DNA of 25,474 nt. Source: Spirogloea muscicola (lineage: Eukaryota; Streptophyta; Zygnematophyceae; Spirogloeales; Spirogloeaceae). Positions 1 to 25,474 of the stretch are shown in pieces (within the stretch, counting starts at the first letter, position 1; each line of letters opens with the position of its first letter). The position numbers were made by a program, and so were the translations under genes. The DNA lies in NCBI GenBank assembly GCA_009602725.1, contig WELB01000014.1:194749-220222 (forward strand), written 5' to 3'. Under the pieces are notes generated by a model. The model ran no database searches. It was not told the origin of the DNA and was given only the letters and a program-made list of their open reading frames with translations.

Positions 1-2138
1 CCGCGCCTGGCCGTTGCGTCCGCTGCTGCGACGCCGCCGCCGCTGCAGCCACCGGGCAGCGCCGTCGGGTCGTCGAGCTCCAGCGGCGGCGGCTGGGACA
101 GCTCGCTGGCGCGCGCGTGGGTGGCCGGCGCGCTGGAGCAGCTGGAGCAGAGGCAGGCGGCGAGGAGGGAGAGCGGCGACACGCCGGAGGAGGCGCCGGC
201 GGGGAGCAGCGCCGGCAGCAGCCTGGCCAGCTCCGTCGCCGAGGGCGGCGCCGGCTCCAGCCACGGCCAGCTCTCGCGGCGCAGCCTGCGCAAGCTCGTC
301 ATGGAGTATGGCCTCGAGTGGGGGCCGCTGACGGCGCCCAGGTCCTCCACACCTCCCTCCTCCCCAACTCCCTCCTCAGCTGCCTCCTGACCTCCATACA
401 AGGGCTTGTCAACTGCCGTCCGGTATTCGGGCATCAGTTAGCGACCTCTATGTGCTGACTCGTGGTTACCCAGGAGGTTAGCTAAGCAGTTAGTTGCTGT
501 ACATCTGTCAATGTGCTTGCCTTTGTGCTTGGCCACTCAGGCCCTCCATAACTCAAAGCCTACTTGTTACGCTGTGCAGGCTCACGATGCACCATGGGTT
601 GCAGCGGGACTTGGCAGCAGCTGGCGGAGGCCGGAGCAGCGCCGGCGGCGCCCACGTCGGAGCCGGCGGCACCGGCGGCGGCGGCGGCGGACCCCGTGGC
701 ACCACCTCGCAGCCAGCCAGCTTCTCGAGACTGCCGGCGGTCCATCGAGCGGGGCTGCCGCGGCGCCCGTCGCCGTTGGGAGCACCGGCAGTGCAGAGGG
801 AGGACGACGGAGGAGGCGTGGAGAAAAGGGAGGGCCGCAACGGCGGCCGCGGCAGCCTCCGCGCAGCAGCGCCTGCGCGCGGCGCCGCCGCGCTCTGCCT
901 CGCCGGCGTCCTCGTCGGCGGCAGCCTCCTCGGCCTTGCCGCTCCGCCGAGCCTCGGCGATAGCTGGATGGGCGTGCCTGACACTGGCGGCAGTGCAGCG
1001 GTCTACTCCGGCAGGCGGAGCCTCAAGTCGCTGGCAGGGCCGCCTGACGTTTTCGCCGAGCAGCGTCTAGCCGTCCAAGGCCCTCTGGGGCTCGATTCGG
1101 CGGGGACCGCGGCATTGCGGCGGCGGCCAGCAGCCGGCGGCAGCGGCGGTGGCAGTAATGCTCCATGGATCAAGAGCATCGGTCTCGTTCTGGGGTGGGT
1201 CTCAGAGTGCCAACACTAACTCTAGGTCCACCGCGCTGACTTCATGTTTGTACCTAAGCATTGGGCTCCTTTCCATCTTTCCTCACACAATTCTTCCCTG
1301 ATAGTCTAACAGTGGTAATGTTAGTGGCAGTTACCTTAATCAGTAGCTTAATTCATGTGCATTCTCATTCTTACGTATCTTCCGACAGCTCTGGCTCGTA
1401 TGGCGCAGGTGGATGTCGGCGGCATTCTACGTGAGCTCCCGCATTGCGCAGATCGCTCGCAACCACGAGCGCCGCTCTGTCGAGGGCCTCTCCATGGCGA
1501 TGTTCGGCTGCGCCATGGCGGCCAACTCGATGTACGGCGCGTCCATTCTCATGCGCACGCCTGGCTGGTGCGTCACCGCTCTCCACCTTCTGCCGCCCTG
1601 TCCTTGTTAATCTGTGGCTCCGATAGCATATCCATGAACGCCCTCTGTATGCACCTGACTGGCTTTTACAGCCGCTCTTTGAACGTTAGCAGCATTAGCA
1701 GCATTAGTAACATCAGCGTATATGTCCTTCCTCTACTACTTTGTCCTCCCATTGTGCTGCCGAAGCTCAGGCTGCAGTCCTCCCTCCCTCCTTTCCCCCT
1801 CCCTCCTCTCCATGCTGCCCGCAGGACGGACCTGGCCGGCAAAGCTCCCTGGCTGCTTGGCAGCCTCGGCACCGTCTCACTCGACATGGCCATCTACCTC
1901 CAGGTGCGTAAGCCCTAAACCCTCTTTCCTTATCGCCACCTCACAGAGCTCGTAGCTTGGTGCAGTCCCTCCTGACAGCATGGCCGGTGGGCTCCTATGG
2001 CAACGGCAGGCAAGGTACCTTGTGTACTGCTACAGCAACAAGCCTCTGCGCTCCGAGGAGGCGGCGCCGTTGCTCCCCAATAAGCTGGCGCGGCCGGCCG
2101 ATGCCATGGTTGCGACAGACTGCAACTTGGAGCCGTGA
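1..2138 (+). CDS. PQ-loop repeat membrane transporter (Ypq/PQLC2-like), 5'-partial
   Basis: The reliable exons are about 1000-1194, 1409-1567, 1825-1903 and 2010-2138 (TGA at 2136-2138), with phase-consistent GT-AG joins. They encode the second PQ-loop of the family: IGLVLGWMSAAFYVSSR, then AQIARNHERRSVEGLS, a transmembrane stretch, and APWLLGSLGTVSLDMAIYLQ followed by a short charged tail. Known relatives (yeast Ypq proteins, animal PQLC2) are seven-helix vacuolar/lysosomal exporters of basic amino acids; the substrate here is inferred only. A hydrophobic segment (LCLAGVLVGGSLLGLAA) lies at about 892-942. The first PQ-loop should lie upstream of the window. An open, fully GC3-biased segment at 1-341 ends in a phase that fits an exon from 605. 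It is probably the low-complexity inter-repeat linker of the same gene, but the frame between about 605 and 900 is unresolved. The family PQ dipeptide reads AQ here. The gene converges on the minus-strand gene ending at 2314. Confidence 0.78.
425..550 (+). repeat. Dispersed LTRGY-family repeat copy inside a PQ-loop gene intron
   Basis: Positions 431-469 read ASVSDLYVLTRGY in frame. About 30 nt downstream is a tail containing AATGTGCTTGCCTTTG (510-525). The same peptide end and the same tail recur on the minus strand at 25265-25360 and 25195-25232, and the tail alone at about 24400-24440. This is therefore a copy of the dispersed element described below, lying in the putative intron 342-604. 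Confidence 0.75.
1641..1716 (+). repeat. Intronic copy of a short dispersed repeat (CACAGCCGCTCTT family)
   Basis: This lies inside the intron 1568-1824. It reads CCCTCTGTATGCACCTGACT, then a GGCTTTTACAGCC-like hairpin and GCTCTTTGAACGTTAGCAGC. It matches 8689-8757 (intron 1 of spermidine synthase, same orientation to transcription) and the reverse complement of about 24715-24785. Confidence 0.75.
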
Positions 2139-2313
2139 CTGGCAGACGTCCCGGGGATGGCAGTGAGCTGCGAGGGCAAGGCTGCCCCCCCTACGACGAA
2201 GTCCAGGGCGGCCTAAGTGCTCGTCACTCGCCTGTGAGTCGCAGTATGACGTTTAGGCGCTCAGATTGGCAATGGGTCATTAGCAACTTGCTCCATGCTA
2301 GCTGCGCCGAGCA

Positions 2314-5300: not shown

Positions 5301-6366
5301 CACAGGCCCTCCCACCCGCTGCAGCGCTGGCACTCCCTGCACCGCCAGCCAAGTGCACCAATGCCAACTGAGGGCCGCCGCCTGGCAGAAGCGCCGGTAA
5401 CACTAAACCCAAATCCTAACCCTTAAACCCTAAGTACTAGATCCTAAACCTTAATGAGTGCCGCCGCCTGGCACAAGCGCTGGTGCGGCAATTGTAAGGC
5501 CGGGCAGCGAGCGTCCTCACTTGGGCCCGTAGAACTTGCTGACAAGGTCGAAGGTCACGGCGGCTGTGCCAGCGGCCGCCACGGCCTGCCGCGGCGGCGA
5601 CACTGGCGCCAGTCAGTATGATGAATGTTCCGGAAGGAAGACAACCAAACCCTTTTGAGTCAGAATGTGCATAATCTATATGGGCTGGAGGTGCTACTAT
5701 CACGACTAGCGGTCCTTGGAGGAGCTCCAGAGGGAGGCGGCGGCAACGGCAGGAGTTGCGCACCGCGACACTGAGGCCGGCAATGTTGCTGACGGCTCGC
5801 GGAATGCCGAGGCCCGTGCGCAGCGCCTCTTGGGCCTCTGTTGCCGAGATCGCAAACCCAAGTATTGTGATAAGCATAGATGTAACAAACATTCTAATAT
5901 GTTAAGAGAACGAAATCAACCAAATGTATAGAGGTGTGTAGATTTCCAGGAGCGTGAGAGCCGCCGCAGACAAAGGCATTGAACACGAAAAGCCTTCTGA
6001 GACTATCTCAGCTTTCTGGGCTTTCTAAGCTTCCTGAGCCCTTTCTATCCGCTCAGCTCATCTGCATTTCCGTTTGCTAATACGACGGAACTCAGAGGGC
6101 TGAGTAGCCCAGCTTGCGGTTCCGCGTCATGTAAACCCACATTCCCCTCTGTCAGTGACTGGCTGGCTTTCACAGTCACCTCATAGCATCAGCAGACGCT
6201 TCTGATTTCTGATTCCCAAGAATGTCATCATAGCCCACATGAACGCAGTAGACGTAGAAGTGATGGGTTTGGTGGGCGCACCGACGTTGAGCTCGAAGGC
6301 GGCGTCACGGGCGGCCTCGGCGGCGCCGCGCGCCCGCGCCACCGCCGCCTTCAGGAAGCCCGCCAT
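2314..6366 (-). CDS. DnaJ-type cysteine-rich zinc-finger protein (12 exons, 489 aa)
   Basis: Exons on the minus strand are 6366-6282, 5837-5764, 5585-5521, 5381-5238, 5076-4944, 4827-4765, 4735-4598, 4452-4327, 4192-4121, 3880-3743, 3504-3229 and 2469-2314. All joins are GT-AG and phase-consistent, from MAGFLKAAVARARGAAEAAR to a lysine-rich end KETKGQRS. Four CXXC-type pairs resemble a DnaJ cysteine-rich domain: C89/C92-QRCSG, C103-STC-GGSG, C161-TAC-DGT and C172-PEC-HGQ. After them come a conserved-looking region (FLLFERPELEGGFTMPEDV, about 252-270), a proline patch and a charged, probably helical C-terminal third. There is no J-domain. Such lone zinc domains occur in plant organelle assembly chaperones; an organellar role is only inferred. 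I do not recognise a specific orthologue. One base is N (3310, exon 11). Introns 3 and 11 carry telomere-like tracts and junction duplications. Confidence 0.85.
2745..3200. repeat. Degenerate TTTAGGG-like array with duplicated exon-11 ends
   Basis: Intron 11 of the minus-strand DnaJ-type gene is filled with variants of GGGTTTAGGGT. Embedded at 2841-2900 and 3024-3082 are two decayed copies of the exon 11 3' end and its donor (original about 3213-3278). The copies lie 184 and 192 bp apart and still carry GTATGCAG at the donor position, read on the minus strand. The array begins about 20 nt into the intron. Confidence 0.85.
5374..5484. repeat. Telomere-like tract flanked by a 25-bp duplicated splice acceptor
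   Basis: GCCGCCGCCTGGCAGAAGCG at 5374 recurs with two mismatches over 25 bp at 5460-5484. Between them (5403-5450) lies a degenerate CCCTAAA tract. The first copy is the acceptor and first bases of exon 4 of the minus-strand DnaJ-type gene; the second sits inside intron 3 and keeps the CCAG acceptor. Splicing to the distal copy would soon reach a stop in frame. Confidence 0.85.
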
Positions 6367-6393
6367 GGCCGCCGCCTCTCTACGCCGCTCCAA

Positions 6394-6490
6394 AACCTAA
6401 ACCTCAAACCTAAACCCTGTCCCCCGTCCTCCGGGCAGCGCCTTGCCTTCGCCGCCGCCGCCGCCGCCGCCGCCGCTGCGGCCGCCGTCG
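6394..6490. promoter_or_regulatory. Upstream region of the DnaJ-type gene: telo-box-like tract and (GCC)n
   Basis: Directly upstream of the minus-strand ATG at 6366, the + strand carries AAACCTAAACCTCAAACC-type repeats (6394-6419), then a (GCC)n run at about 6447-6486. AAACCCTAA-like telo boxes are known promoter elements of plant housekeeping genes. Whether this tract is regulatory or just another telomere-like insertion cannot be told from sequence. Confidence 0.4.
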
Positions 6491-6639
6491 GAGGTCCGCC
6501 CGCGAGGCGCGCCGCAGGACGCGGCGCGCGCGCGGGGCCTCCGGCGGCTGGAGGCAGGGGTTTAAGGCCACCGGGGGTTTAAGCTGGCCAGGCCTTCACA
6601 TTGAGCAAGCCTGCGGCCGCTCAACGGGATGTTGAGCAC

Positions 6640-7540
6640 CCAGTGGCCAGATGAGTCGCTGTGTGCTTTACCGCTTTTCTGACGTCTTTCCGCCTGCTAG
6701 CTATTCAGACTTGCAACTAGTGACTAGAGGTTGCTGAAAGTCCGCTTGCTGCTGTCTCAGTCCTTAGCACTCCGGCTCCTTCGGACCTTGTGCATTCCTT
6801 TGGGCTGGCCTCTCCCAGCCACCAGTTAAACTGGCCGCGCTTGCTTTCTGGCCCCCTCGAAGTCTGTTCCTTCTTTTCTCTGGGCTGGCCTCTCCCAGTC
6901 ACCGCCCTCTCATGGAACCGTCTTTCTCTCTTGTACGTTCCTAGGGGCTGGCCTCTCACAGCCCGTAGTTTGGCCCCTTCGAACCTTGTCAATTCTTTTC
7001 GGGCTGGCTTCTCACAGCCCTTGCCCCCATTGGGAGAGCCACTTCTCTCACAGCGTGCCGGCCGTGCTCTGGCTGCAGCCTCTGGCTTTCGTCAGGGGGA
7101 TTGCTTTTTGGCTGCTAGTCTTTCGGGTTTGCGGCTCCTCACTCGTGGTGACTAAGTGATTCGTCCCACCCAAGCTCTGAGACAGCGCTCTTGGCCCCTT
7201 CGGACCCTTGTCCATTCAATTCGGGCTGGCCGTTCACAACCCTTGCCCCCTTTTCGGGGAGTCACTTCGTTCTTACAGCCACTAGCTTACATCGTAAGAG
7301 CTGCTTTCAAAGCTGGCCAGGATGATGTTGGCTGCTTTGACTCAGTGCCTCGAGAGAGTCAACTTGCACATGGACAGAAGAGAGATAGACAGCTGGTCCA
7401 TGGGCCACACCTTGCATCTCCGTGCTGGCCGTGCTCTAGCTGCAGCCTCTGGCGTTCGTCAGGGGGATTGCTTTCCGGCTGCTAGTTTCTCTGATTTGCG
7501 GCTCCTCACTAGAGGTTACGACGCGGATTTCTAAACTGGA
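6640..7540 (+). repeat. Cluster of dispersed LTRGY-family repeats (three ORF ends)
   Basis: This non-genic stretch consists of repeat copies in the + orientation. Open segments with the shared frame are 6690-6737 (ends SDLQLVTRGC, stop), 7054-7155 (RAGRALAAASGFRQGD ... LRLLTRGD, stop) and about 7397-7534 (LHLRAGRALAAASG ... SDLRLLTRGY, then DADF, stop). Between them are hairpin-forming motifs such as GGCTGGCCTCTCCCAGCC (near 6801) and GGCTGGCTTCTCACAGCC (near 7001), and the leader AGCTCTGAGACAGCGCTCTT (about 7170). No host gene is visible here. Confidence 0.75.
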
Positions 7541-7835
7541 AAGAGCTATTTCAATGTATAAGGCAATGGCTGTGAGAGGCCGAAGGTATGAACATTGCAT
7601 TGCAGTAGATTCATTCAACGGAGCTGTTGCAACGAGGGACATTGCCACGAAAGTAGAAAGTTTTCCATTGGGTTGATAGCAGTGGAAGGCCAGCCCAACC
7701 ACGACTAGTCAAGGTCAGGAAGGGCCAGAAAATACAAGACTACACATCCCCTCGAGTGGCTATAACGAATGGGGGCTCAATAGAAAGGGCTCGCCCATTG
7801 GGATCGCTCATAACCGCCCATTACCAGCCGTATGT
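7541..7835 (-). repeat. Inverted-orientation fragments of the same repeat family
   Basis: AGGCAATGGCTGTGAGAGGC (about 7561) and GGGCTCGCCCATTGGG-like sequence (about 7786-7802) are reverse complements of segments seen in the + cluster and match the minus-oriented cluster at 24780-25140. No open frame of note. Confidence 0.6.
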
Positions 7836-8362
7836 CAGATTAGCTTGCAGCAGGATAAGTGTCAACGTGATGTGAATCAAATAAACGTGATGAAAGCAAG
7901 GCCGAGAGGAGATACAGCGAGTCATCAGATCGATGACTTCTGGCAGCAGAGGCAATCAGAAGCCGACAGAAGCTCAATGGGGGACCGTAGCTGAGAGAGG
8001 CCATCCGTAAGCAGTGGATAGAGCTGGAAGAGCAGCACAGCGGGCGGGCAAGCCGAGTGTACTCGAGCCCATCCAACTGGCACTCCGAGCCACTGCCGTC
8101 CCATGCCTTTCCCGTCCATCCGCCAAGCCTTTCCAAAGCCCCTCCGGCAGCGGCAGCCCCCCAGCCACCACCCACCTCCTCCTCTTCTGGGCGCCCACGT
8201 CGAGGTGCGCCGCCATCGCCGCCACTGTCCTCCTCCTCCTCACGCCCTCACCTCCTCCACCCTCCCTCCACGCGAGGCCTTCCAGTGGCCCATCTCTCAG
8301 AGCTCCTCGAGACGCCAAGGCCAGCGTGCCACGACGACGGCCGCTCCGGCACTACGACGGAC
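7836..8362. other. Non-coding or unresolved upstream region of spermidine synthase
   Basis: No gene is supported. Several open frames overlap on both strands at 8050-8340 (proline/serine-rich on +, arginine-rich on -), which is expected from the base composition. One + frame is open from 8057 into the spermidine synthase start, so a longer 5' end is possible. Confidence 0.4.
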
Positions 8363-8533
8363 ATGCGGCCAGCTGCGCTCGCCTGTGCCGCCGCCGCCGT
8401 CGTTGCCTCTGGAGCCAGAGCCGCAGTTGCTCATGCTCTGCTGCCGCGGCTGCTCAGGCGGTCACCAGCGGCAGCGTCGGCGCGAGGCTGGACAAGGCCG
8501 GGGCGGTGCGGCTCCTCCCTCGGCGCTGTGGCG
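8363..8533 (+). other. In-frame transit-peptide-like extension upstream of spermidine synthase
   Basis: An ATG at 8363 is in frame with the ATG at 8534 with no stop between. The 57 residues begin MRPAALACAAAAVVASGARA, contain eight arginines, and have no aspartate or glutamate. That composition is typical of plastid or mitochondrial targeting peptides. It could be a real leader used by alternative initiation, or open 5' UTR. Confidence 0.4.
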
Positions 8534-11009
<2,476 letters not shown>

Positions 11010-12482
11010 CTGCCGGTCTGCCACCTTCGCAAGCTAGAGCAAATCCGGCCTCTATTCAAGTACCCTATTTTTGGAAGTCCTTGCAAGAGCTCCTACAGAT
11101 ACCTGGCTCGCTCAGAAGGATAGACACAAATTTGACATCGACGCTCATGATGGCCTCCTCATTGGCAACTATTTTGTCTTGGAGGTGTGCAAATTGACAT
11201 TGACCAAGGGCATGGCAATCACAAGCTCACAGTGATCATTTCACGCGACGATCAACATGTAGTACTGCTATTTGTGGAAGCCCTGAACACTCGACTAGGG
11301 ATCCAGATTAATCTCATGGCAAGAAGGTATTGACTGCCAAGGACAGAAAGAAAGAAAGGAAAGAAGGAAAGAAACAGCTCTTCGAATGTAAGGCAATGGT
11401 TGTGAGAGGCCAGCCCAAAGGAATGAACAAGGTCTGAAAGGGGCCGCCGTCGAAAAGCGCAAGACAATTGCATTGCCAGGTCGTTACATGTCCACAACGT
11501 CGTTCGGAAGGGCTGACACCATGACACTGTTACCTTGATGTCGCTGTGTGCTTTAGCGCTTTTCTACTGGGAGAGTCTTTCTTTTGCACTGTTCTGGCCC
11601 CTTCGACCTTCGTTCATTCTCTCTTCTGCGCTGGCCACTCACAGCCGTCGCCCATCACTGGAGGAGCTTTTCTTCTTCACCTCGATACCATCTAATCTGA
11701 ACGAGTGCTTTGACGCTTTGACCCTTTCAGACCCTGTAGCAATGGGCAATGGGCTTTACTGCATTGGGCTGGCCTCTCCCAGCCATTGCCTTTCATTAGG
11801 GTCTCCAGCGGTCCATGGCCCACGCCTTGCATCTGCGTGCTGGCCGTGCTCTCGCTGCGGCCTCCGGCTTTCGTCAGGGGGATAGTTTACCGGCAGCTAG
11901 TCTGTCGGATGTGAGGCTCCTCACTCGTAACTACTAAGTGGTCCATCCTCCCCCGTTCTGCCATAGCCTCTTNGCAGGATCCCGTGTGCAGCACACGTCT
12001 ATTTCTTACTTCTTGTGTACCAAGCAATGCCTCTTCATTTGCTTTCAGAAGGTCTTATGTCAAGTGCAGCGACGTCCTCATGCGGAGACTGCACGGCTTG
12101 TGCACGCTCACGGATGCGCTCGACTGAGCGACTTGCGCAGCATTGGCAGCTTACTGTGGGCCTTGCAGTCAACAGCGCCAAAGCTCCCCACCAAGTACGT
12201 CGCTTGGTGACCCTCACTCAGACGCACTGCAGACCATTGCGCAAGCTTCACTTCCGGAGCGTGACATGAGCAAGGGACGGACTCGTGAGGGTGTGCTGGT
12301 GCGCCTCACAGCATGCACTTTCGGGCCTTTCGGGCCTTATTACATCCCTTTGGGCTGGCCCTCCAACGGGGCGAGCCCTTTCTTCTGACGGCCACTGCCG
12401 TTAATTAATTGGAAGAGCCGTTCGCTATCCTAAAGCCTTATCCATCCTGAGCCGGGCGGGCCAGGGCCCGGGCCAGGCCGCC
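11010..12482. repeat. Intergenic repeat region between spermidine synthase and ssSPT
   Basis: No gene is recognised. Contents: an AAAG/GAAAG-rich simple tract (11342-11373); a minus-oriented fragment with GGCAATGGTTGTGAGAGGCC (about 11393-11412); and a + oriented repeat copy from about 11540 to 11940. The last has hairpin motifs and an open end at 11809-11937, RSMAHALHLRAGRALAAASG ... SDVRLLTRNY, stop. One N lies at 11973. Frames at 12050-12230 (e.g. LAQHWQLTVGLAVNSAKA) are open but I recognise nothing definite in them. Confidence 0.6.
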
Positions 12483-12790: not shown

Positions 12791-12842
12791 ACGCCGCCGA
12801 AGCCGGCTCTGAGCTGCCGCGGCGGCTCCCGGCGGCGACGTC

Positions 12843-15800
12843 ATGGCGACGGCGTGCCGTTGGCGGCCGGCTCTGGCGGCGTCGAGGCCGCCGTCGCCGG
12901 CCGTCGCCGCCGCCGCCGCCACGGCCGGTCCGGCGGTGGCCACATGGAGAAGCGCTGCCAGTGCCATAGTGGCCGTGCCGGTCGCGGAGCCCGCCGTTGC
13001 CGCCGTCGCGCCGGAGCTTGGCCTCCTGCGAGACGTCAACGGGACGTCTGGGACGTCGAGCAAGCGGGCCGGCGGCAGCGGCGAGATGGCAAGGGCAGAG
13101 GCGGCGCGGTCAGTGGTGGCGGCGGTGGAGGCCGTGGCACGCCTGCGCCACTGGGAGGACATCGACGCCGCGCTGAACGCGTGGGACGGCCGCGCCGACC
13201 GCAAGCTCTACCTAGCGCTCATCAAGGTCTGTCCGACAAAAGCTGTCGTTTCCGGAATCGAGCCCTGGTCCTGCTCTATCCTTCCTTCGAGTCCCAAGTC
13301 TGAGCTGATCAAGCTCATGAGTAGAAGTTAGTTAATGTGTTACTTAATGTATTACTTGGTAGACTACTAAATAAGACTGCAGCAGCAGAGCCCGTCGAGC
13401 TTGACACCTGCATTCTGCGGAGCATGGCGTTGCCAGGGCGTGGCAGCGCGTTGCAACAAGGTTGTCAGCCTCAAGGTCTTCAACTGGATGAAGAACCAGG
13501 GGTGCTACCGCGCCCGCACCGAGGTGTACAACGCCTTGCTGCGGCAGCTGGCTCAGGAGCGCCTCGTCGGCGATGCGCGGCACCTCTTCTACGAGATGCA
13601 GGAGTGGAGGTGGGATGACGGCGTATTGGCCTTCCAAAGTCCACATTTGGACTGTCATCGTAGCGTTTTGTCACTGTGTCATGAGGCTGCCAAAATATTT
13701 GTCTTTGAGGGACAGACTAACTAGAGCTATGACTGTGTGTTTTCTCATGCTTACGATGAACTCCTATCAGCAGCGAACTGGGTGCAATTGCAGGTGCAAA
13801 CCAGACGTGGAGACGTACGCGGCGCTCATGTCCGCACATGGCAAGGCCGGAGACTGGCGGGGCGCCATTAGCCTGTTTGACGAGATGCTGCGAGCTCAGG
13901 TTGTCATCTGTCTGAGGCTGGGCCTGTGTGGCCCCAGAGAAAGCACTTATGAACGACAAGCTCGCTGACTGCTCATGATTAATTTTGGGCCCAAAGTAGA
14001 GCCACGGGTTGTCCACTCTTACAAGAGTATATTGGACTTCATCTCAGGGGGTAGGTCAAGGTCTAGTATGTCAAATTTGAAAATTAAGCACATAATCTAT
14101 TCAATTAGTGTCATGTACTCAATTGACAAGTAGGGGCTTCAATCTACCTGTCAGCTGCACCAATGTAACAGTCAAGACAAGGTGCTGGCACTTAGTTGTC
14201 ATGCTTTGCGGCTCCTGCAGATTGCGCCCAGCCGTGGCTCGTACAACGTGCTAATCAGCGCATGCGGCATCTGTGGGCGACTTGATGAGGCGCTGGCTGC
14301 GCTTCAGCGCATGACGAACGACGGGCTTCATCCAGACCTAGTTACACACAACACCGTTCTGGCTGCATTCAAGCATGCTGAGCAGTACGCACGTGGCCTT
14401 GAGTACTTTCAATCGATGCAGGTGTGGCTCCATGTGCAAGGTAGCCGAGACAATATATTTTTACATGGACCACTTCAGGCTTGAAGGTTGTGCGTATTGA
14501 ATTGTGTTGCGAGTTTGCTATTATACGGCTGCGATGAATGGAATGGTTGGCCACGCTGTGCAGAAACGGGGTGTGCGGCCGGATCGAATCACGTACAATG
14601 TGTTGATGGGCTGCCATGCCAAGCTGTGGGATGTTGGCGCGGTGCAAGCATTGTACAGCGAGATGCGGTCTATGCGGCCACGGTCCAAGTTCTGGCCCGA
14701 TCGAATGACGTACAACACTGTCATGCACGCCTACGCTGCAAGGTCCACACTGTCCCTGCAGAGATTGTCAACACAGCCTGAGTGCTTGAGTTGTGGCTTT
14801 CAAAAATATCAGTGTTCGTGTTGACACTTTCAGCTAGCGAGTGGGTATTCATCAAGTTATACTAATAACCTGATACTAGGACAACCTGGCCTGTATCCTG
14901 TGGTCAGTGGGGACCATGCAAAAGCCCGGGCCGTGTTTGACGACATGCTCGCTGAGGGGGTGGCGCCCAATGCCGTGACCTTCAATACGTTGATTGGCGC
15001 TTATGGTGCGTGGGGCATGCACGAAGCTGCCAAAGAGGCCTTTGACATGCTGGAGATGGCGGACCTTCTGCCGGATGTTGTTTCCTATTCCTCCCTAATC
15101 AACGCCTATAGGTGAGGCCCAAACCTCTGGACCCACATCCTGCTCGAATTTTTCAATATAATGCATACATTAGTCACTGTCCGAGGTTTCAATGCATGTG
15201 CTACTAGTCTCACTGCCTTCAGCAATCGATTTGGCAGCAAGGCTGGGCTGCCGGAGGAGGCACGGGCCGTGTTCGACCGCATGAAGCACCGGCACTGCCG
15301 GCCCAACGTGGTCACGCTCAACAATCTGGTCGATGGGTACAGCCGTGCTGGCAGGCTGGCCGACGCCTGGGGCCTGCTGCAAGAATATGACGACGCCAAG
15401 CTCCAGCCCACCGTTGTCACTATCTGCTCGCTCATTGCGGCCTGCGATCGAAGTAGCAAGGCTGACATGGTGAGTCGGCAGAACGCCCCTTTCTCCACCT
15501 TTCAGTTGACTTTGCTACATCCTTTAGGTTAGCATCCAATCAAGTTTACTTTTCTCAGACCATCTTCTCGGACCACTGAGATCCTTCCTTTTCTTTTTTA
15601 GCTTTCGAAGGTGCTCGAGGAGGCAGAGGCTCGCAGCGTGGAGCTCAATATCGCGGCCTACAATGCGCTCATCCTTGCTGAGCTGAATGCGGGTCTCCAC
15701 GATGCAGCAGTCAGTGTCTTCCAAAAGTTGCAGAGGACTGGCCCGGTGCCCAATGCAGTGACCTACAGCATCATGATCAATGCTGCCGGCAAGGACGGGC

Positions 15801-17795
15801 GGCACGAGGATGCGCAGGTCTTGTTTGAAGAGATGCAGCGGGCCAGTGTGACGCCGTCGGTGCAGGTGTACACCTCGCTCATGGACGCCTATGGAAAGAA
15901 GGTCAGCTTGATCAGAGCACGCCTCAGCTTGCAGTCTGGATACCCATGCTCAAAAACGAGCACAACGTGCTTTGCAGATCACATAGAGTTTTCTTGAAGG
16001 ACATCAACCAAGGTGGGCGAGCTTCTTGCCGTGTACAGTCTTCTTGAAGCACATCAACCAAGGTGGGGCGAGCTTCTTGCCGGGCTGGCTGCAGGGGCTT
16101 TACAAGGAAGCGCACAATGTACTGCGGACCATGAAGAAGGACGGGTGTGAGCCCAACGTTGTTAGCTACTCAGCGCTGATGCAAGCATACAGTAATGCAG
16201 GTCAGGGCAGCTTGCAAGCCCTGCCTTCTGTCCAATTTTCTAGATTCTAGAAGCTTGTTGCTGTACAATGCATTTCCTGTACAATGCATTGAGACAACTT
16301 TAAGCGTGGGGCTCACATTACAAGCTTGTGCACATCGTACAGTCATTGAGCAGATCTGCTCATGCTTTGGTTATGCGCAGGACTATACAAGGATGGCATG
16401 GACATCTTCGCTGAAATGAGGGTGTCTAATGTACAGCCAGATGTCACAGTATATGGCATTCTGCTGGACGCCTTGGACAAGTCCGGGCAACACGAGGATG
16501 CTCTTGAAGTGGGTCAGGGCATGCGCCCTGCTGGCGTCATACCAAACCAAGTTGTCTACAATCTTCTCCTCTCCTGCTGCTGCAGGTACACACAGCCCTT
16601 GGCTGGAGGCATTTGTGCTCTGGGATGGCATGGAGTGACTGATTCCAGCAGGATCTTTGCACCTTTGTTCAGCGTCTGCCGGTTCGCAATGGACATTTTT
16701 CCCCTACATGTTTGCCATGTCTGAGGCTGATACATGATGTGCAAGGCTGAGGAGGTGGGAGGAAGCTGAGACGCTCTTTCACCAGATGAATCTTGACGGC
16801 GTGATGCCATCGACACGCTCGTACACCCTCCTTGCTGACACACTTGGGAAGGCTGGCCAGGCGGAGCGCGCATGGCAGGTGCATCTACTGCCTGATCGAA
16901 CTCATTGAGGCGCATGTACTGTCCAAGTTGGAGATGGTATTGGTCATCATGGAAGTTCTCAGATGTTCTTATCTTTGTTCTCATATAGCACTCACAATGG
17001 GATTGGACTTGTTGCACCTGCAATGTGAAGGCCTACTGCAGTGCAGTATACACTCATACATGCTGAGGACTTGAAGGAATTGACCAGGATCAGTTTGTTC
17101 GTGTTTGTAGATCTTCAACCAGATGCAGCAGAGCGGGGTGAAGGCGTCAGCAGCCACTTTTCACGCTATGTTGCGTGCGTTCGCGCGTATACAGAGGTGG
17201 AAGAAGTGCTTGGAGGTGAACAAGTCCACCGCTACTCGTCACGTCGGTCGTGCATAAAGTCTGGGGTTAAATCTGTCATGCTACTTATGCTCATACATTG
17301 CGGCAATTTTTATGCAGATCATCGGTTTGATGGAGACATCTGAGGTCCCGCCGACCACCAAGAGCTACAACATTGTGCTGGGCTGCCTGAATCACCTTGG
17401 CCTCTGGCAGCAGGCTCTTGCCATCCATGAACGCTTGCTGGCCAACAGGTCTGCTCCTAGACATCTGCTCAGAACTTGGTGGCATCGGTTGCATTGAATG
17501 CCTATGTGAAGGCCTCCTGCGCAAAATCGCTGTGCTGCTCCCCGAGAAATGTCACTTGTTGCTACACCACTTTGGCTACTGCAGCTTCCGTCACATGCAT
17601 GCAATCTCAATAATCTGACATTCCTGTTTCTGCCGTTGCAGATGCTTGCCAGACATGACGACCTACAGGACACTGGTTGCTGTTCTAAGGAAAGGAGAGC
17701 AAAGGGACTGGGCCTTAGAGATGCAGGCTCGGCAGCAGGCGCTGTTCAACGAGGAACGCAGGTCACTGACAGAAATTGCTAGCCTGCTCAAGTGA
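12843..17795 (+). CDS. EMB2654: Pentatricopeptide repeat protein, EMB2654-like (14 exons, 875 aa)
   Basis: Exons: 12843-13226, 13437-13609, 13794-13899, 14221-14421, 14564-14742, 14908-15111, 15223-15469, 15602-15901, 16095-16200, 16381-16585, 16746-16878, 17111-17215, 17318-17448, 17642-17795 (TGA). All joins are in phase. The first about 45 residues (MATACRWRPALAASRPPSPA...) are Ala/Arg-rich with no acidic residue, like a plastid transit peptide. A coiled tandem array of P-class PPR motifs follows, about 14 repeats. Residues 187-221 (CKPDVETYAALMSAHGKAGD...) and the next exon (IAPSRGSYNVLISACG, MTNDG, PDLVTHNTVLAAFKH) closely resemble Arabidopsis EMB2654 as I remember it, and length and repeat order fit. 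EMB2654 is required for trans-splicing of plastid rps12 intron 1, so the same role is inferred. A restricted PPR gene family in green algae makes orthology plausible but not proven. Confidence 0.9.
15991..16082 (+). repeat. 42-bp direct repeat in PPR intron 8
   Basis: TTCTTGAAGGACATCAACCA at 15991 recurs at 16041 with one substitution and one extra G, ending GCTTCTTGCCG. The period is 50 bp. The second copy ends 12 nt before the acceptor of exon 9 (16095). No telomere-like sequence here. Confidence 0.9.
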
Positions 17796-19252
17796 CTTCG
17801 TTTTGTCGACGCTGTCCAGTTGCAGCTCTGATGCCGACTGCGACGGAGTGGCCATGTAGAGTATGCAGTGGAGGAGCAGGGGTGGGTGAGCGTGGGTGAG
17901 GGTGTTGCTGATCCTGTCATCAAGTATTCGCCGCTGGTCAAAAGGCTCAGTACCCAAGTCAGTGGGCTGTCACGTACTCGGCACATTCTTTTCTGACGTG
18001 CCAAAGTGGGCGGTTGGATCTGGAGCCAGCTTCTGGCGTGCCAAGGTGGGTTGCCCGTGGAAGACGGGCCTGGAGCAAGCAGAGTCCTTTGGCATAAGCA
18101 GGCTTCTTGTGTTGAATAGCTGGCCGGTCTGACAAGGCATGTAGTCACGGGTAGCTGGCCATGGAGTACTCCAGCATGATGTCCACTCCTTATTGACACT
18201 CTGTGTCTCCACTGTGAATATTGCCGCAAGTGGCAAGTGTATTTGGGCATGCTAAGAGTGACTGTCGCTTGCTGCTGCACGTGTACTTCTTACCTCGCAC
18301 TATTTCGAGCAACTGCATTTCAGCTGCCGCACCAAGCAGGCAATATGGTGCGCAGTGTGGGGCAGCAGCTGCCGCAGTGGAATAGGAGCAATCATCGACC
18401 TTGTGGACGAGTGGGAGGTGTTGGGAGCTGGCCTGTGGAAGTACGCCTTGGAGCGCATGGCCTGCGCTAATTGATCATTTGTGGGCGCAGACCAATCCCT
18501 TCTGAGCCACAGAAATCGTTCCTTCCGGCCACTCCGTAATTCGTCATGGCGCGCTGCCAGTGAGCCAAGAATGTATGTGCAAGCTAAGCAGATTGCCAAA
18601 GTTAGCCCAATGATTCAGCCTCGCTCTGGCTGAGACATGGAGTCAGGGTCAAAACCACAGACAAGGATGTACTTCTGAGGTGTTTCGATGGTCACAGGAG
18701 CGCCTGGAAGTCGGCATGACATCGACAACCTAACACAGCATTGTGGGCTCCTCGGTAGGGGACATTAAAGACTTCACCGGTGATGGTTACCTGTTGGTGG
18801 ACTATGAGGAGCGCCGACTAGCTCGTATGCCCTTGCTAGCTCACTAAGTGACCATCCTTCGAGGTACTTGCTTGATTGTGTTGTTTCAGCCGCTTTCCGG
18901 CGCCATCGGACCTTGTCCATACATTTCGGGCTGGCTTTTCTCACAGCTTTCTCTCTACTTTCACAGCCCCCTTTCCTCAACTCCTCTAGGCTTCTGGCTG
19001 GCTCATACAGCCGCGTTCCGCTTTCTGGTAGAGCCCCATTCTTCCCGTCAGGAGATCTCAAAAGGCAGGCCAAAACCCCTCTCACCTAGCCACTCTTGAA
19101 CCCTTGCAATCAGAACCCTAGCGAAGTCCGAACACTCGAGGCCGGCCCCCACTGACCTCCATGCTCGTCCAGATAAGGCCTTGCGGCCTTGGCGACCACA
19201 GCAGCACCACCATCGCGGGTTGCGACGCCAGATTGCTGCGCCGAGGCCCCAG
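17796..19252. other. Intergenic region without a recognised gene
   Basis: The 3' flank of the PPR gene has short direct repeats (GTGGGTGAG at about 17882 and 17892; CGTGCCAAAGTGGG and CGTGCCAAGGTGGG at about 17996 and 18036). Open frames on both strands (e.g. 18280-17663 on -) overlap the PPR exon or have no coding bias. From about 18800 to 19090 the sequence resembles the dispersed repeat family (CACTAAGTGACCATCC, CGGACCTTGTCCAT, CGGGCTGGCTTTTCTCACAG). Confidence 0.5.
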
Positions 19253-22200
19253 ATGCTCGGGGCCGCCGCCGGCGGCAGGGCGTCCTTGGCTCTCTCCGGC
19301 AGCCGCTGGCATGCCACAGCCGGCTGGAGAGCCCGTCGTCGTTTATTCGTGGGCGCTTGGTGGAGGCTCGGCCTTGCCCCACAGCCCTTTCTGCTGGCAT
19401 CCCAGTCGATAGATGTGCAGACTGAACGCCGCGCCGCCAGTGATGGCCACTTGGGCGCCGCGCCAAGTGCTGGTGGAGTGCCGTCACGAGAGCTGGGTGG
19501 CGTGAGCGCTTTGGTCGGCGAGTGCAGCAGCCGCCGTGGTCGCGGGTCTCGTCCGGACGTCGGCGGCGGGCTGCTTACGGCCGCGGACGTTGTCACCGGC
19601 GCAGTGGACGTCAGGGGGTGGCGCGTGGTGCTGGAGGCCACTGGCGAAGAGATTGGTGAGCCAAGCCCACCCTAACCCTAAATACTAACCCCTAACCCTA
19701 AATCAAGAATGAACCTAAGACCCATCAGCGATCAGATTGGCGAGCCAAGCCTACCCCAGCTTCAGTTAGCCAGTCTGTTTCTTTTACATCTATCAAAACC
19801 ACAACAAAGTGCCAAACTCTCATGGCTGGCGCTCAACAGCCAGGTCTAGTGGAGCTGCGCGCTATGCAGGAACTGTGGATGAGCTGCTGGACGTCGTAAG
19901 TCAGGTGGAGCTCGCCGACGTATCCGACGAAGGAGACGGCAGTTATGAGACGGCAGGTGCAAAGCAGTTTGCGAAAGAAGATCCAATTTACATCCGTAAG
20001 CCAGCTAACAGCAAGTGACGGAGCACCAATGCTTGACAAAAGTTGTTGCTGTGAATGATTCACCAGCTGACTAGTTGCAAGTTCCTGCTTGCAGTCCACG
20101 AGTGCATGCTGCAAGTCTCTAGCTTGAGCACAAAGGTGTCGCCTCCACTTCCTGCGGCTTCGTCAAAGAGACAGAGCGAGCACGGAGCGTCGATAGCCCA
20201 GGATGCAAGATTAGCAGGAACTGAACATGGGCTTAAAGTTGCTACAAAGGTCGAGCATGCGGAGGAAGTGAAGGAAGATAAGGACGAAGAGGGTCCGTGC
20301 ATAGCCACGTTCCTTGTGCCTTTTGTGGACGCAATTGTGAAGAGGATCGATGCAACGGCGCATTGCCTGCTCATCGACGTGAGTCAGCCTCGCTAGAAGT
20401 GATCAAACAGCATCGGGTCACACTTCAGAGGAAAATAGTACTCCAGGCTCTGAACTTGATATCAAGCGTCTCCATTCTCGAGCAAGGTGAACAGATCATG
20501 AAATATGGTCAGGACTGAAGGTTGAGGATTTGGTCTTCGCTGTCTGCATGAGAGTGTCATCTGCTGCCAGCTGCTGACCTGAGCTCTTGCTGACTGCGGT
20601 ATGCGATGCCTCTGGTTGCAGCCGCCAGCGGGCTTGCTGGAGCTGGGGCATCGGGAGGGCCAGCTGGACGCCTTGGAGCCGCTGCTGTCCGATTTCTGGG
20701 AAGAGGACCGTGCTGGCCGCCAGTCCTGCCTCCTCCAGTCGTGGCAGAACCCCAGGAATGTGGAGGTAGGCTGATAAGCAGCTGGTTCATAATACTCAAT
20801 TTGTGTTCATGACACATACCACACAATGCTGCATAAGTTAAATATTCTGAGATTGAACATTCTCTTTTAGCACCTTGGGCTAGAGTGCCTGCAGCGCGTT
20901 TCAGAAAATCGTGTTATTTGCCAAGAAAAATCGGTCTTCTCTTGTTCTTTCTTCAAGATCAACTTGTTTAGCCAATCACGGTGACGTCATTGCACTAACT
21001 CAAGAAGCGATAGACAATGCAAAATCCGCTTGATAGACTCATGGGCTCTGGTCTCCTGTTGCCAGGAGAGTGTAGAGGCGGACGAGAGGATGAGGCGTGG
21101 TGCAATTGGCTGCGATGGCGGTCGGCCCGACCGCTGGCTCAGCGACAGCCGGCTGGGCCAGCCGTACATGCCGACGCGGCGTCAGCTCGTTGCGGCGGGG
21201 CGGCAGGACATTGTCGCCCGCATCGCTGCTGCCGGCGGCTTCCTCAGCGTCGCCGAGGCGCTGGGGCTTCGAGCGCGCCGCCGTCCCAATGGCTTCTGGT
21301 GAGTATGTACTTACTGACAGAACATCATACGTGTAGGAATCAATTTGGATTATGTTTTAAATTTGGTTTCTCGACTGACTAGTGATTATGCGCGTGCTGA
21401 TGCCTTGATGGCCTTACAGGGAGGACCTCCGCAACGTCGATGCGGAGATTGAGTGGCTCGTGTCGTCGGAGGCATGGGTGCGGTCCTCTGCCAAGGCAGC
21501 CACCGCAGCCGCAGCCGCCGAGGGGGGTGTAGCCATCATGCCCCAGGCGAAAGCCGTGCGGGAGCTTGGCCGCTACGATCTCCACAACGCGGTCAGTGTT
21601 CAGTTAACGCTTTGTCATTTATGCTGTTACATTTATCCATAATCATAAAGAGCAGCGGCGTGTAGCGGTTCAGGCCTCAAGCTGCTGTGGGTTGGGGCGG
21701 CTGGTGCGGACAGATCATGATGCACGGCGGCTACAAGGACGTGGCGGCGCAGCTCGGCCGTCGGCCGGCCTCGGCGGTCGCCGTAGAGTCGCTCGCAGAT
21801 GGCATGCGCTCGTTCATGAGCGAGAGGGGAATGTATCTACCTCACCAGCAACCTGAGCTATGCAGTGCCTATGCTAAAGCTTTAAAGTTATGAAGCTTTG
21901 AGCTTTAAGCCAGAAACCTTGAGAATGGTGTTGGTGGCTCATTTCAGAAGAGGCCCTGCTGACAGTGTCTCCCAGCCAGTTTACCCTTTTTCAGGAATGT
22001 CATTCCGAGGTATAGGCAGCTTCGAGCGGAGGGCCGTCAGGACTTGATCGCGGCCCTCAAGCGGCACGGCGGCCCTGCCGTGCTGGCCGACTACATGGGC
22101 CTCCGGTGCTCGCGCCACGGTGTGAGCACCCGCTCCGCTTCCTCTTGACCACTTTCTGCAACTTCGTCTACCCTGCAGCAAGGGTATAGGGTTTCAGCTT

Positions 22201-23260
22201 TAGGATGTAGGGTTTATGGGCTAGGGGTTTAGGGTCTAGGTTTTCGGGTTTAGGGTTAGGGTTTATGGATTGAAGGGTGTTATGGTTGTAGCTTCTCATT
22301 AGTTGCCACAAGTTCAAGTCCTGCAGAGTGCACTCAGCACTTGTTGCCACGGGCCGTTTGATGTCCTCATGAATGGTCATCCATCACTGACAAAGGGGTG
22401 AGAGAGTGCTGTCTCCACACGCGTCACAGGCAACACTTGCCCATCTCACGGTGTCGTGCTGGCTGATGGTGGTGCCGCAGAAGGGCCACTGGCACCAGGA
22501 GGAGCGTGCAGTGCAGGCACTTCGCGAGTACGTACTCACTTGGAGCCAACGTACAGGGTGCGCCGCCGCAACCACTGTGCAGCCGGTGCACAACGGCCAG
22601 GCCACAAGAGGCACGCGAGTCACTCCTAAATGTTTCTTCGGCTGAGCAACTAAGTTTGAGGCTCATGCATGCATTCCATCCTCCAGGGGAAGCCTGGCGC
22701 CTCTGCGCTGAATTTGACGCCGTGGTGCAGAGAGAACCATTCTACACAAGAACTTAATCATGACAACCCGGCTGCTTCTTGCAGATTGCAGCGACTTTGA
22801 GGAAGAGTGGGAGGCAGGCTGCGCGGCGGGCGTCCTTGTGATGCCATCCAACAACGAGCTCCTGCAGCAGCGGCGCCACGACCTGCGCTACATCATCCAG
22901 GTATTGGCCTGGGGCCGATGGGACGCAGTGCACTTCGGCATGACGTAGTCCCTTTTGCCCACGCTCTCTCCTATCCATCTTCTGGCAGCAATCTGTTATC
23001 TACTCTAATTTTCTGTTTCACAGGCCTATTGCAAATTGTGTGTTTGGACTTGCAGCACTCATAAGTCAACAACTTAGCCCTATGGCATTTTGCCTTCCGA
23101 TGGCTTGATTGCGCAGAAAGTCGGGCGGAAAAAGCTGTGTCAGCTTATGGGCCTCCCAGAGCGGCGAAGCCGCAAGCAGCAGAGGACCGGTAAGCTGACC
23201 GCAGGAGTCACATCGCCGCAGGACAGCGTACATGATGCTAGCAGCGACAGGGCTCCCTGA
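19253..23260 (+). CDS. RimM-type PRC-barrel protein with four C-terminal repeats (11 exons, 645 aa)
   Basis: Exons: 19253-19655, 19870-19995, 20095-20378, 20622-20765, 21066-21298, 21420-21591, 21714-21832, 21995-22121, 22481-22550, 22785-22900, 23117-23260 (TGA), all phase-consistent. The start (MLGAAAGGRASLALSGSRWH...) is acid-free and Arg-rich, so a plastid leader is likely. A PRC-barrel begins at GWRVVLEATGEEIGTVDELL (about 122-141). It is interrupted by an acidic insert of about 90 residues and resumes LVPFVDAIVKRID ... LLIDPPAGLLEL (to about 279), the RimM C-terminal signature. RimM helps mature the 30S subunit. Then come four repeats of the form MPxxxxLxxxGRxDLxxxIxxxGGxxxVAxxLGL, starting near residues 353, 436, 494 and 579. 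I recall plant RimM proteins of similar length. The usual N-terminal RimM domain is not visible. The exon 9 donor at 22551 is the least certain join. Confidence 0.8.
19645..19757 (+). repeat. Duplicated exon-intron junction flanking a CCCTAAA tract
   Basis: GATTGGTGAGCCAAGCCCAC (from 19651) spans the end of exon 1 and its donor in the RimM-type gene. GATTGGCGAGCCAAGCCTAC recurs from 19735; similarity extends upstream to GCGA in both. Between them (19673-19705) is CCCTAA-rich telomere-like sequence. In the second copy the donor GT has become GC. Confidence 0.9.
22180..22290 (+). repeat. TTTAGGG-like tract in intron 8 of the RimM-type gene
   Basis: Repeated variants of TAGGGTTT and GGGTTTAGGGTTAGGG lie inside intron 22122-22480. 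They are in the TTTAGGG sense on the transcript strand, opposite to the tract in intron 1 of the same gene. No clear junction duplication was found around it. Confidence 0.8.
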
Positions 23261-23506
23261 AGGACGTCAAGGTCTGCTGCTGCTAAAGAGTTCGTGCAAT
23301 GCCGTGTAGCTGCAAGGCTGCCAATGGAGGTATGACTCATTCCCAAGCCCCAAGAGCTCAGCTCAAGCAGAAGCCCTTTCCTAGCAATCACTCTCGGCCT
23401 AGTTGACTTTGACGTAGATTACAATAAGTTGGTGAAACCCCCTAACTGGGCTGTGATAATTATTTTGTAAGCACTAATGGCGAGCATTGAGTGTGTGGTC
23501 CAGCCG

Positions 23507-23824
23507 TCACGTGGTGGTGGGGAGGTCGAGGGGGAGCCAGAGGCGGCCGATGTGGTTGAACGGCTGCGCCTCGGGGTGCAGGACCTCGACGAGCACCTCC
23601 AGGGCCTCGACGAGCGACGGGCCGGGGCGCGTGAGGAGCCGCGCGGCGTCCATGACCGCCACTCGGGTCGCCGGCTTGAAGGCTGCGAGGTGCCCCGCGG
23701 CGGCCACGCGCCGTGCCTCGGCGAGGGACGCCTCGAGGCCGAGGCCGCAGAGTGCGAAGATGAGGAGGGGCGGCGCGGCGGCGGCGTCGAGGCAAGCGGC
23801 AGCCAGCGCCGCCCACGTCGCAAT
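23507..23824 (-). pseudogene. Orphan coding segment, possible last exon or gene fragment (about 105 aa)
   Basis: On the minus strand, 23824 to the TGA at 23509-23507 reads as a strongly GC3-biased protein: ATWAALAAACLDAAAAPPLL, then LEASLAEARRVAAAG, VAVMDAARLLTRPGPSLVEA and HPEAQPFNHIGRLWLPLDLP. It looks like an alpha-helical, Ala/Leu-rich C-terminus. I do not recognise the family. Directly upstream the sequence becomes the dispersed repeat (GCGCTCTTGGCCCCTTCGG, about 23832-23850), and no AG acceptor lies between the repeat edge and the coding start. Either the exon is spliced from an acceptor inside the repeat (GCTCTGAGACAG, phase 0 to CGC) or the gene was truncated by the repeat. It could be a live 3' exon whose 5' exons lie beyond the window. 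Confidence 0.5.
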
Positions 23825-23825
23825 T

Positions 23826-24122
23826 GACAAGGACCGAAGGGGCCAAGAGCGCTGTCTCAGAGCTTGGGAAGATGGATCACTTTGTAACCACGAGTGAGGA
23901 GCCACATGTTCGAAAGACTAGCAGCCGGAGAGAAATCCCCCAGCCGAAAGCCAGAGGCTGCAGCTGGAGCACACATGGACTCAAGTAGCTACGAAGCACA
24001 TTAGTAACCCCTACTAAGCAGCCACAGGTCGGAGAAAGTATTCTCTTGGTAGCGGGTCCCCTGGCTAGGGCCAGAGGCTGCAGCAAGGCACGACCGGCAC
24101 GGAGATGCAGCGCGAGCCATGG
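23826..24122 (-). repeat. Two minus-oriented LTRGY-family copies
   Basis: Copy one ends at about 23884: AAASGFRLGDFSPAASLSN, then MWLLTRGY and an open run on. Copy two is 24122-24001: SMARAASPC ... FSDLWLLSRGY, stop TAA at 24003-24001. Both share the frame of the + copies at 7054-7534 and 11809-11937. Confidence 0.75.
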
Positions 24123-24310
24123 ACCTTGACAGCGAGACGGCCAAGTGCATGCGATACGCCTGCGCGAGCGAGCTTGCGGCATGGAAATCTACCGGCTACC
24201 CAAGCACTACGGGCATGCAGGTGCCAGGCGTAGGCCATGGACCGCTGGAGGGAGATGGAGAGGCGCATGCGGTAGACCTGAGCTAGCGAGCCGGCGGCGC
24301 TGAAGTCAGC
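24122..24310 (-). repeat. Tandem duplication of a coding-like segment, upstream part of the LTRGY element
   Basis: Two minus-strand segments read SLAQVYRMRLSISLQRSMA (about 24291-24235) and, in another frame, SLAQAYRMHLAVSLSRSMA (about 24171-24115). They are about 120 bp apart and match at most residues. The downstream one runs into the copy ending at 24001, so this appears to be the more 5' part of the element's reading frame. Confidence 0.65.
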
Positions 24311-24389
24311 CTGCTCACTTCGCCTGCGGGACACAGCGCGCCGTGCAAGCCGGGCCAACAGAAAAACGTGTGTACTAAGAGATGGGGAG

Positions 24390-24945
24390 GCCATGTGTGG
24401 CCAAGTACAAAGGCAAGCACATTGACAAATGTACGTCACCAACTCGAGCCACTGGGACCCGAGAACCTAATCTTTTCCATAATCTTTTTCAGCCCCTATC
24501 CTCAATGGGCGAGCACTTCCTTCTTCATCCACGGCCAGGGGCACGAACTCGTCCCCAGCCGGTTGGAAATGGAATGGATCAGGCTGGAAGGGCCGGAAGG
24601 CGCAAGTAAACACGTGACTGCACTCCATGACTTCTGGTCCAGGAAAAAAGGATAGAAAATGGAAAGGGGGCTCTTCCGAAAAGCGCAGCACAGACTGGGT
24701 CCAAAACCAAAGCGGCTGCTGATATTAAAAGAGCGGCTGTGAAAGCCAGCCAGATGCATACAGGTGTAATAGGGTCCAAAAGGGCCGAAAGGGGAGGAGC
24801 TCGCCCATAGGAAAAAGAAGAAAGTGCTCGCCCATTGAGAATAGGGGCTGGAAAAGCCAGCCCAAAAAGAATCAACAAAGGACGAGAAGGGGCCCAGGGG
24901 AAGCGCTAAGTAAAACAAGCACTCAAAGAAACAAAGCAGCTACGG
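24390..24945 (-). repeat. Minus-oriented repeat segments: tail, CACAGCC hairpin and leader pieces
   Basis: Read on the minus strand: the tail AATGTGCTTGCCTTTGTACT (about 24400-24433); a third copy of the intronic repeat (about 24715-24785, GGCTGGCTTTCACAGCC then GCTCTTTTAATATCAGCAGC); and GGGCTGGCTTTTCCAGCCCC near 24846-24865 with CTCAATGGGCGAGC beside it. Open frames here are not coding-like. Confidence 0.65.
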
Positions 24946-24950
24946 ATCAA

Positions 24951-25150
24951 TCAGTAACCCCTGCTAAGCAGCCTCAGGTCAGAGACGCTAGGCTCCTGGA
25001 AGTGGGTCCCCTGGCCAGAGCCAGAGGCAGCAGCGAGGGCTCTGCCGGCCCGCAGGTGCAGCGCGTGGAAAGAAGAAGGTGCTCGCCCATTGAGAAGAGG
25101 GGCTGGCAGAAGCCAGCCAAAAAAAATGGGACAAAAACCAAAGAGCCACA
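24951..25150 (-). repeat. LTRGY-family copy
   Basis: The minus-strand frame HALHLRAGRALAAASG ... SVSDLRLLSRGY ends at a TGA, 24953-24951. It is preceded by the hairpin GGCTGGCTTCTGCCAGCC (about 25101-25118) and CTCAATGGGCGAGC. Its 16 codons for HALHLRAGRALAAASG differ from the copy at 11809 at ten bases, all synonymous. Confidence 0.75.
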
Positions 25151-25194
25151 ACAGGTGCCGAAAAGAAAATTCCGTGTATTACTAAAGAAAAATG

Positions 25195-25360
25195 TAGGCC
25201 GAATGGCCAAGTACAAAGGCAAGCACATCTAAAGATCTACATAACCTACAGCAGATTGACTCGCTCAATAACCACGGGTCAAAACATAAAGGTCACTACT
25301 CGATGCATGAATACTAGATGCCAGAAACGGAGCCCTTCTGCCACCAACTAGAGCTCGCCC
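25195..25360 (-). repeat. LTRGY-family copy with tail (DLYV subfamily)
   Basis: The minus-strand frame KAGRALVGGRRAPFLASS ... SSDLYVLTRGY stops at TGA 25267-25265. About 35 nt further on is the tail ATGTGCTTGCCTTTGTACTT (25227-25208). The end matches the copy in the PQ-loop gene intron at 431-469. Confidence 0.75.
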
Positions 25361-25474
25361 AGCTTTCTGGTGCAAGGCACTAGCCTGAGCACGCTGCAAA
25401 CAGGCCGAAACTCGTCGTCGCAAGAGCGACAGATATGCAGCTGGCAAGCCCATCTCAGCCGGAAACACATCTGC

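Follow-up and report, generated by a model that had tools for sequence, protein, structure and literature searches.

Dispersed LTRGY-ending repeats in Spirogloea muscicola are very probably dead 3' fragments of abundant non-LTR retrotransposons

The repeats that end in the peptide LTRGY or a close variant in a 25,474 bp stretch of Spirogloea muscicola DNA (contig WELB01000014.1, positions 194,749 to 220,222; the window from here on) are very probably dead 3' fragments of abundant non-LTR retrotransposons (LINEs) of families A–F, a reading to which we give a probability of about 0.96. An earlier note made from the letters of the window had proposed a single LTRGY family under protein-level constraint. 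The constraint is real, but the copies appear from their C-terminal peptides and 3' UTRs to be at least six related LINE families, not one.

Family A has a C-terminal peptide of the form RQGD...LTRGY or NY, and family D, of which we saw the C-terminal 500 residues, ends in SDLYVLTRGY. Family B (QGT.FQ...LLSRGY) and family E (RRSASFPASSYSDLMLLTRGY) are the only two in which we found full-length frames, while families C (RSGVDLPPLSSSDFLLLTRGY) and F (QGDVFPPASYSDLHLLTRGY) were seen as tail fragments only. Family D is the most divergent, its C-terminal part being 40–41% identical to that of B, and its ending is nevertheless kept. There are also 3'-hairpin variants (type G) whose coding part is not in view.

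A six-frame search of the window recovered all nine LTRGY-type copies that had been claimed, with the tail peptide at 440–469, 6708–6734, 7126–7152, 7493–7519 and 11908–11934 on the plus strand and at 23910–23884, 24030–24004, 24980–24954 and 25294–25268 on the minus strand. Both examples of silent change held up: for HALHLRAGRALAAASG, the copies at +11821 and 25067(-) differ at 10 bases in 9 of 16 codons, and for SDLYVLTRGY, those at +440 and 25297(-) differ in 6 of 10 codons; the encoded amino acids are identical in both pairs. The statement that seven copies stop within one codon of the Tyr position needs correcting, as a stop directly after that position is found in six of the nine (copies 6708, 7126, 11908, 24004, 24954 and 25268). 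Copies 440, 7493 and 23884 continue for 3, 4 and 8 codons, respectively, and in the copy at 7397–7519 the family resemblance ends immediately after the Tyr codon. We rejected a match at +19224–19250 (DARLLRRGP, within three mismatches of the tail peptide) that looks like chance. A weak, stop-broken tblastn match to the tail peptide at 7863–7810(-), with E=5e-4, was left unmarked by the long-copy DNA library and may be a decayed tenth copy.

A BLAST comparison of the window with long genomic copies (loci numbered with L) gave 17 strand-specific islands covering 2,468 of the 25,474 bp, and the LINE-derived share of the window is about 2.5 kb. The reversed window gave no islands in the same comparison, which excludes chance for the set of copies as a whole. 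LINE pieces outnumber the copies listed earlier, and some have no peptide (8589–8744, 24484–24525 and 24709–24767, for example), and every family except E is represented among the best matches.

Most islands in the left part of the window lie on the plus strand. At 423–534 there is a family D 3' fragment, with SDLYVLTRGY at 440–469 and 3' UTR (70.8% identity to L076, E=3e-4), and at 1633–1680 a family C 3'-end fragment without the peptide that is weak when taken alone (82% to a C-type tail in L012, E=3e-4). A family F 3' fragment at 6681–6842 carries SDLQLVTRGC and a stop, 3' UTR and 3' hairpin (83% to an F fragment in L067, E=2e-45). Three family A pieces come after it: a 3'-end fragment with hairpin and CTT-rich end (6968–7049; 93% to L024, E=1e-27), a copy with C-terminal codons (LTRGD-stop), 3' UTR, hairpin and end (7053–7274; 82% to L023, E=3e-29), and a copy consisting of the last 41 codons, broken off right after the Tyr codon (7390–7519; 87% to L024, E=4e-35). 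Further along are a family C 3' fragment (8589–8744; 77% to a C-type tail, E=3e-24) and, on the minus strand, an F/G-like 3'-hairpin fragment (11397–11437; 88% to F, E=2e-7). The plus-strand family A copy at 11803–11972, SMAHALHLRAGRALAAASG...LTRNY-stop, is, along its full length, the island closest to a long copy (95.9% to L024, E=8e-75). Another 3'-hairpin fragment lies at 18896–18943 on the plus strand (81% to F, E=9e-5).

At the right end of the window, most pieces lie on the minus strand. They include a family A copy with NMWLLTRGY (23839–23972; 80% to L023, E=1e-21), a family B copy ending SDLWLLSRGY-stop, apparently in more than one piece (23983–24361; 79% to L032, E=1e-47), a family A coding fragment (24528–24566; 87% to L024, E=2e-6) and a family C 3'-end fragment (24709–24767; 93% to L012, E=1e-16). 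The family B 3'-end fragment at 24484–24525 is on the plus strand (92% to L028, E=4e-9). Back on the minus strand, a family B copy at 24805–25143 has HALHLRAGRALAAASG...SDLRLLSRGY-stop, 3' UTR, hairpin and CTTTCTTCT, with a second tail adjoining (88% to L028, E=1e-85), and a family D copy at 25169–25474 with SDLYVLTRGY-stop continues beyond the window end (94% to L076, E=1e-130). The neighbouring stretch L075 has an N run at its bases 524–2272, beginning just before the last base of the window. A 676-aa open frame at the right end was discarded because it runs through N.

Some other features also came to light. The window frame at 9852–10493 matches Spermine_synth (PF01564, E=6e-28), and by eye the family C fragment at 8589–8744 apparently sits in an intron upstream of this spermidine synthase domain exon. 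The family C fragment at 1633–1680 looks, again by eye, to lie within an intron of a different gene, and the frame at 1352–1915 received no name from Pfam. Pentatricopeptide-repeat exons (PF13041, best E=1.5e-20) occupy 13492–16721, apparently interrupted by many short introns, and within this gene region a 34-bp unit occurs twice at 15984–16067, 50 bp apart and with 91% identity. Degenerate TTTAGGG / CCCTAAA telomere-like runs occur within gene regions at 2737–2965, 5400–5460 and 22181–22265. Elsewhere in the genome, C134:218085–219693 has six matches to a frame-shifted tail peptide at a spacing of exactly 305 bp and is probably a tandem array derived from a LINE fragment. A second dispersed repeat, GAGAGAAGGCGCGCGGGGCGCATGAAAT-like, recurs in LINE flanks at L028, L041, L050, L056, L059, L060 and L061. 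At L076, the frame at 340–1008 overlaps the upstream end of the family D copy and starts, by eye, with integrase-like residues (HTQADGLAECMVQTIKRGLTTYALRKGQDRW), which suggests that an LTR element adjoins the LINE there.

Long copies were sought in the whole genome (153 Mb, 471 contigs). A 42-aa tail peptide gave 15,175 candidates and the RT core 1,164; both counts are loose, and the two queries differed in length. The best 150 tail-peptide candidates by score are stop-free with at least 79% identity, and among the best 150 RT-core candidates open frames of more than 1,300 aa are numerous and some groups have identical scores. Open frames of 1823 and 1407 aa among the tail-peptide candidates run through N and were set aside. 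The long copies found first, L023 and L024, have a long frame with the tail peptide at its C-terminus. The RT of L024 (family A) lies upstream, with RVT_1 above the curated cut-off, in a different frame from the C-terminal part, so this copy is broken. The extended upstream ORF that the earlier note had suggested looking for exists as a single stop-to-stop frame in six of eight further long loci, the six being from families B and E (1338, 1338, 1337, 1418, 1410 and 1363 aa); the longest frames in the remaining two are 949 and 897 aa. L027 and L029 are 100% identical over 4,111 bp, with different contigs and flanks, and L027 and L028, also on different contigs, share 99.6% identity across 4,422 bp. 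Amplification has therefore been recent.

The long frames of the six loci contain zinc-finger-like motifs, RT, C-x-C...H-xxx-C, a nuclease-like PD...D region and an ending of SDLxLLTRGY or a near-variant. Three of them (1338, 1418 and 1363 aa, from families B, E and B) were scanned for domains, and all have RVT_1 above the curated cut-off (E=8.5e-16, 2.5e-13 and 4e-17). No APE endonuclease family was found at E<=10 in these three ORFs, a search in which the HMMER filters drop most matches above 0.1. Zinc-finger models stay below cut-off (best E 0.095, 1.1 and 0.019), and a C-xx-C...H pattern is visible. The best solved-structure matches of the profile are R2 retrotransposon proteins in the RT region (9nl3, E=3.5e-5; 9nl2, E=5e-4). 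We aligned the last 326 residues of eight copies from families A, B, D and E. All eight share C-x-C...H-xxx-C, E149, R166, R167, D169, D184, K214 and the ending S-x-S-D-L-x-x-L-x-R-x-Y, and in each of them the knuckle reads CX1C, then 11 or 12 residues, then HX3C. From the E...D-x14-D...K arrangement we infer that the C-terminal region may be a PD-(D/E)XK-type nuclease; sequence searches with this domain found no match in PDB and none of significance in Pfam.

The reading frame is under purifying selection. Nei-Gojobori dN/dS, the check that had been suggested, is far from 1, at 0.09–0.49 in 51 of 55 pairs (11 copies, at most the last 190 codons); the other four pairs, all involving family D, have no defined value, their silent sites being saturated. 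A frame-shift test on eight chosen pairs, over their last 57 codons, gave pN/pS of 0.08–0.29 in the real frame for five A/B/E pairs and 0.79–2.55 in the two shifted frames (one shifted value is undefined). The contrast is weaker in the three pairs with family D, at 0.68–0.70 against 0.96–1.45. The 15 family pairs have a pS of 0.84 and a pN of 0.23 in the last ten codons, and values of 0.72 and 0.32 in the preceding 40 codons. For eight of the nine window copies, comparison with the nearest long copy gave 1–20 base differences and ratios of 0 to 1.09, which are too few for a test on the fragments themselves. These comparisons support purifying selection on the frame, with a constraint that appears between element lineages, i.e. 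source lineages. The earlier idea of master copies under selection agrees with the existence of long ORF copies with RT and with dN/dS well below 1.

The 3' ends were sampled in family B, and the truncation and duplication figures are for that family alone. Its 3'-end 22-mer, CTCAATGGGCGAGCNCTTYCTT, has 3,218 exact genome matches, and the reversed control has none. From 100 matches listed we hand-picked 40, roughly evenly (36 on contig 1 and 4 on contig 2). The sampled ends have CTTTCTT with variable CTT repeats. A 5' boundary was found in 34, at 27–321 bp from the 3' end with a median of 94.5 bp; of the remaining six, one was without a BLAST hit and five ran into N or the edge of the fetched stretch. 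A common 3' end with variable 5' ends is the pattern of the 5'-truncated LINE-type copies proposed before. Target-site duplications, also suggested as a check, are indicated by short flanking repeats that are more frequent than in mismatched pairs: 15 of 39 copies have repeats of at least 6 bp (3.9 expected), 10 of at least 7 bp (1.3 expected) and 5 of at least 8 bp (0.5 expected). The duplications in this sample are 6–10 bp, the clearest being TGATATTAAA at L055. Some flanking repeats are CTT-rich strings that may be chance, and 24 of the 39 samples have no flanking repeat of at least 6 bp.

Families A, B, E and F have in common, near the 3' end, a TTGTNNATTC box and a GGGCTGG...CAGCC stem-loop sequence. 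Of 72 anchored ends, 42 went into our 3'-end alignment; 20 were left out for failing the end-motif rule, 9 as duplicates and 1 as a two-tail hybrid. Hairpin 1 is nearly invariant and so offers no covariation proof; hairpin 2 differs between families. One of seven pairs is changed on both sides. The covariation term of the consensus fold is only -0.47, and six single folds have z-scores from -2.26 to +0.92, one of them weaker than its shuffles. With covariation this scant and fold scores this mixed, we dropped the argument from RNA structure, and we describe the 3' end only as a conserved sequence that would be able to form a stem-loop.

A conserved protein frame under purifying selection would also be expected if the copies were pieces of an ordinary host protein family that had been scattered as segmental or processed pseudogenes. 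The earlier note had allowed for all copies belonging to such a family, but the protein contains RT, many near-identical intact copies exist, and the fragments have a common non-coding 3' end and flanking duplications above control. Given the RT and the structure of the copies, we consider this origin extremely improbable. A SINE-like origin, in which a separate non-autonomous family has only its 3' end in common with the LINE, is also very improbable for the 3' fragments. The length of many sampled copies (less than 100 bp) and the type G hairpin variants would suit such a family, but the nine window copies carry LINE C-terminal codons in frame, and the 5' breaks in the 34 samples fall at many points and not at one SINE head.

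Whether LINEs of this kind target their own CTT tails, forming head-to-tail nests as in Zepp, is a separate matter. By eye, a tail joins the next copy at the 5' junctions of L027 and L028, at window ~7043 and 25065, and also at L042, L059, L062 and L065, and a LINE piece ends within 15 bp upstream on the same strand in 11 of 38 copies versus 4 of 38 on the opposite strand. On the downstream side of 40 tails, however, LINE cover hardly changes with distance on either strand (0.17–0.25 and 0.15–0.26), and the first downstream LINE piece lies within 15 bp on the same strand in 9 cases and on the opposite strand in 9, which fits insertion into LINE-rich DNA. Since the downstream test gave no support, we do not claim self-targeting and regard it as unlikely. 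End-to-end template jumping of RT is known for R2 and could produce the tail-to-copy joints.

For the preferred reading, in which the copies are dead LINE fragments, we envisage target-primed reverse transcription. The element protein would bind the 3' end of its own RNA, its PD-(D/E)XK-like C-terminal domain would nick the target, and the nick would prime reverse transcription from the CUU-rich end. Synthesis would usually stop early and leave fragments of ~30–320 bp. Selection would act on a few full-length source lineages, which would explain why fragments of different families differ mostly at silent sites.

The layout resembles that of R2-type single-ORF LINEs. As in R2, R4, NeSL, HERO and Utopia, there appear to be one ORF, N-terminal zinc-finger-like motifs, a central RT and no detected APE domain, and the C-terminal Cys/His motif with a PD...D region is like that of RLE LINEs. 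The elements may belong to the RLE group, though the knuckle spacing departs from that of the group and the nuclease is putative, read from motifs. R2 inserts at one site of 28S rDNA, whereas the flanks of the 40 sampled family B ends are of many kinds, and these scattered sites exclude R2 itself. The knuckle is CX1CX11-12HX3C here and CX2-3CX7-8HX4C in RLE-type LINEs, as the latter is given in PMC5678591. HERO, outlined in PMC4640811 as an RLE-encoding clade in which many families are non-specific and some targeting of microsatellites occurs, is similar by description and may or may not be related. Zepp and ZeppL are green-algal LINEs piled up as nested, mostly 3' fragments according to PMC8226300 and PMC3446292, and the tail-copy joints that we saw by eye are frequent, as in Zepp nests. 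ZeppL is treated as an L1 LINE in PMC8226300, with a tree from endonuclease and RT domains; the elements here differ in having no detected APE and no support for tail self-targeting. Dualen/RandI has RLE, Dualen encoding both APE and RLE (PMC4640811), and Dualen was found in Chlamydomonas relatives (PMC8226300). We exclude Dualen/RandI since no APE was detected in the three long ORFs.

Scans of viral contigs and genome contigs gave pattern matches and no confirmed relative. The literature we found on RLE, Dualen and Zepp elements held nothing tied to this genome, from which we do not claim absence from print. The elements are a further LINE of an already known kind, abundant in this genome. 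More tentatively, they may form an undescribed single-ORF RLE-LINE lineage with a variant zinc knuckle, SD[LF]xxL[TS]R[GN]Y-stop in all six families and non-specific spread through a compact genome; this is possible, though we would not bet on it.

The analysis explains a large repeat class of this genome and points out the families with open full-length frames. It also carries a warning for annotation, as a short open frame in a repeat of this kind is a LINE tail and not a gene. Most RLE clades are described as target-specific, and the site specificity of R2 is being used for gene insertion. If this lineage is RLE-type and truly non-specific, it would be a useful natural comparison for R2.
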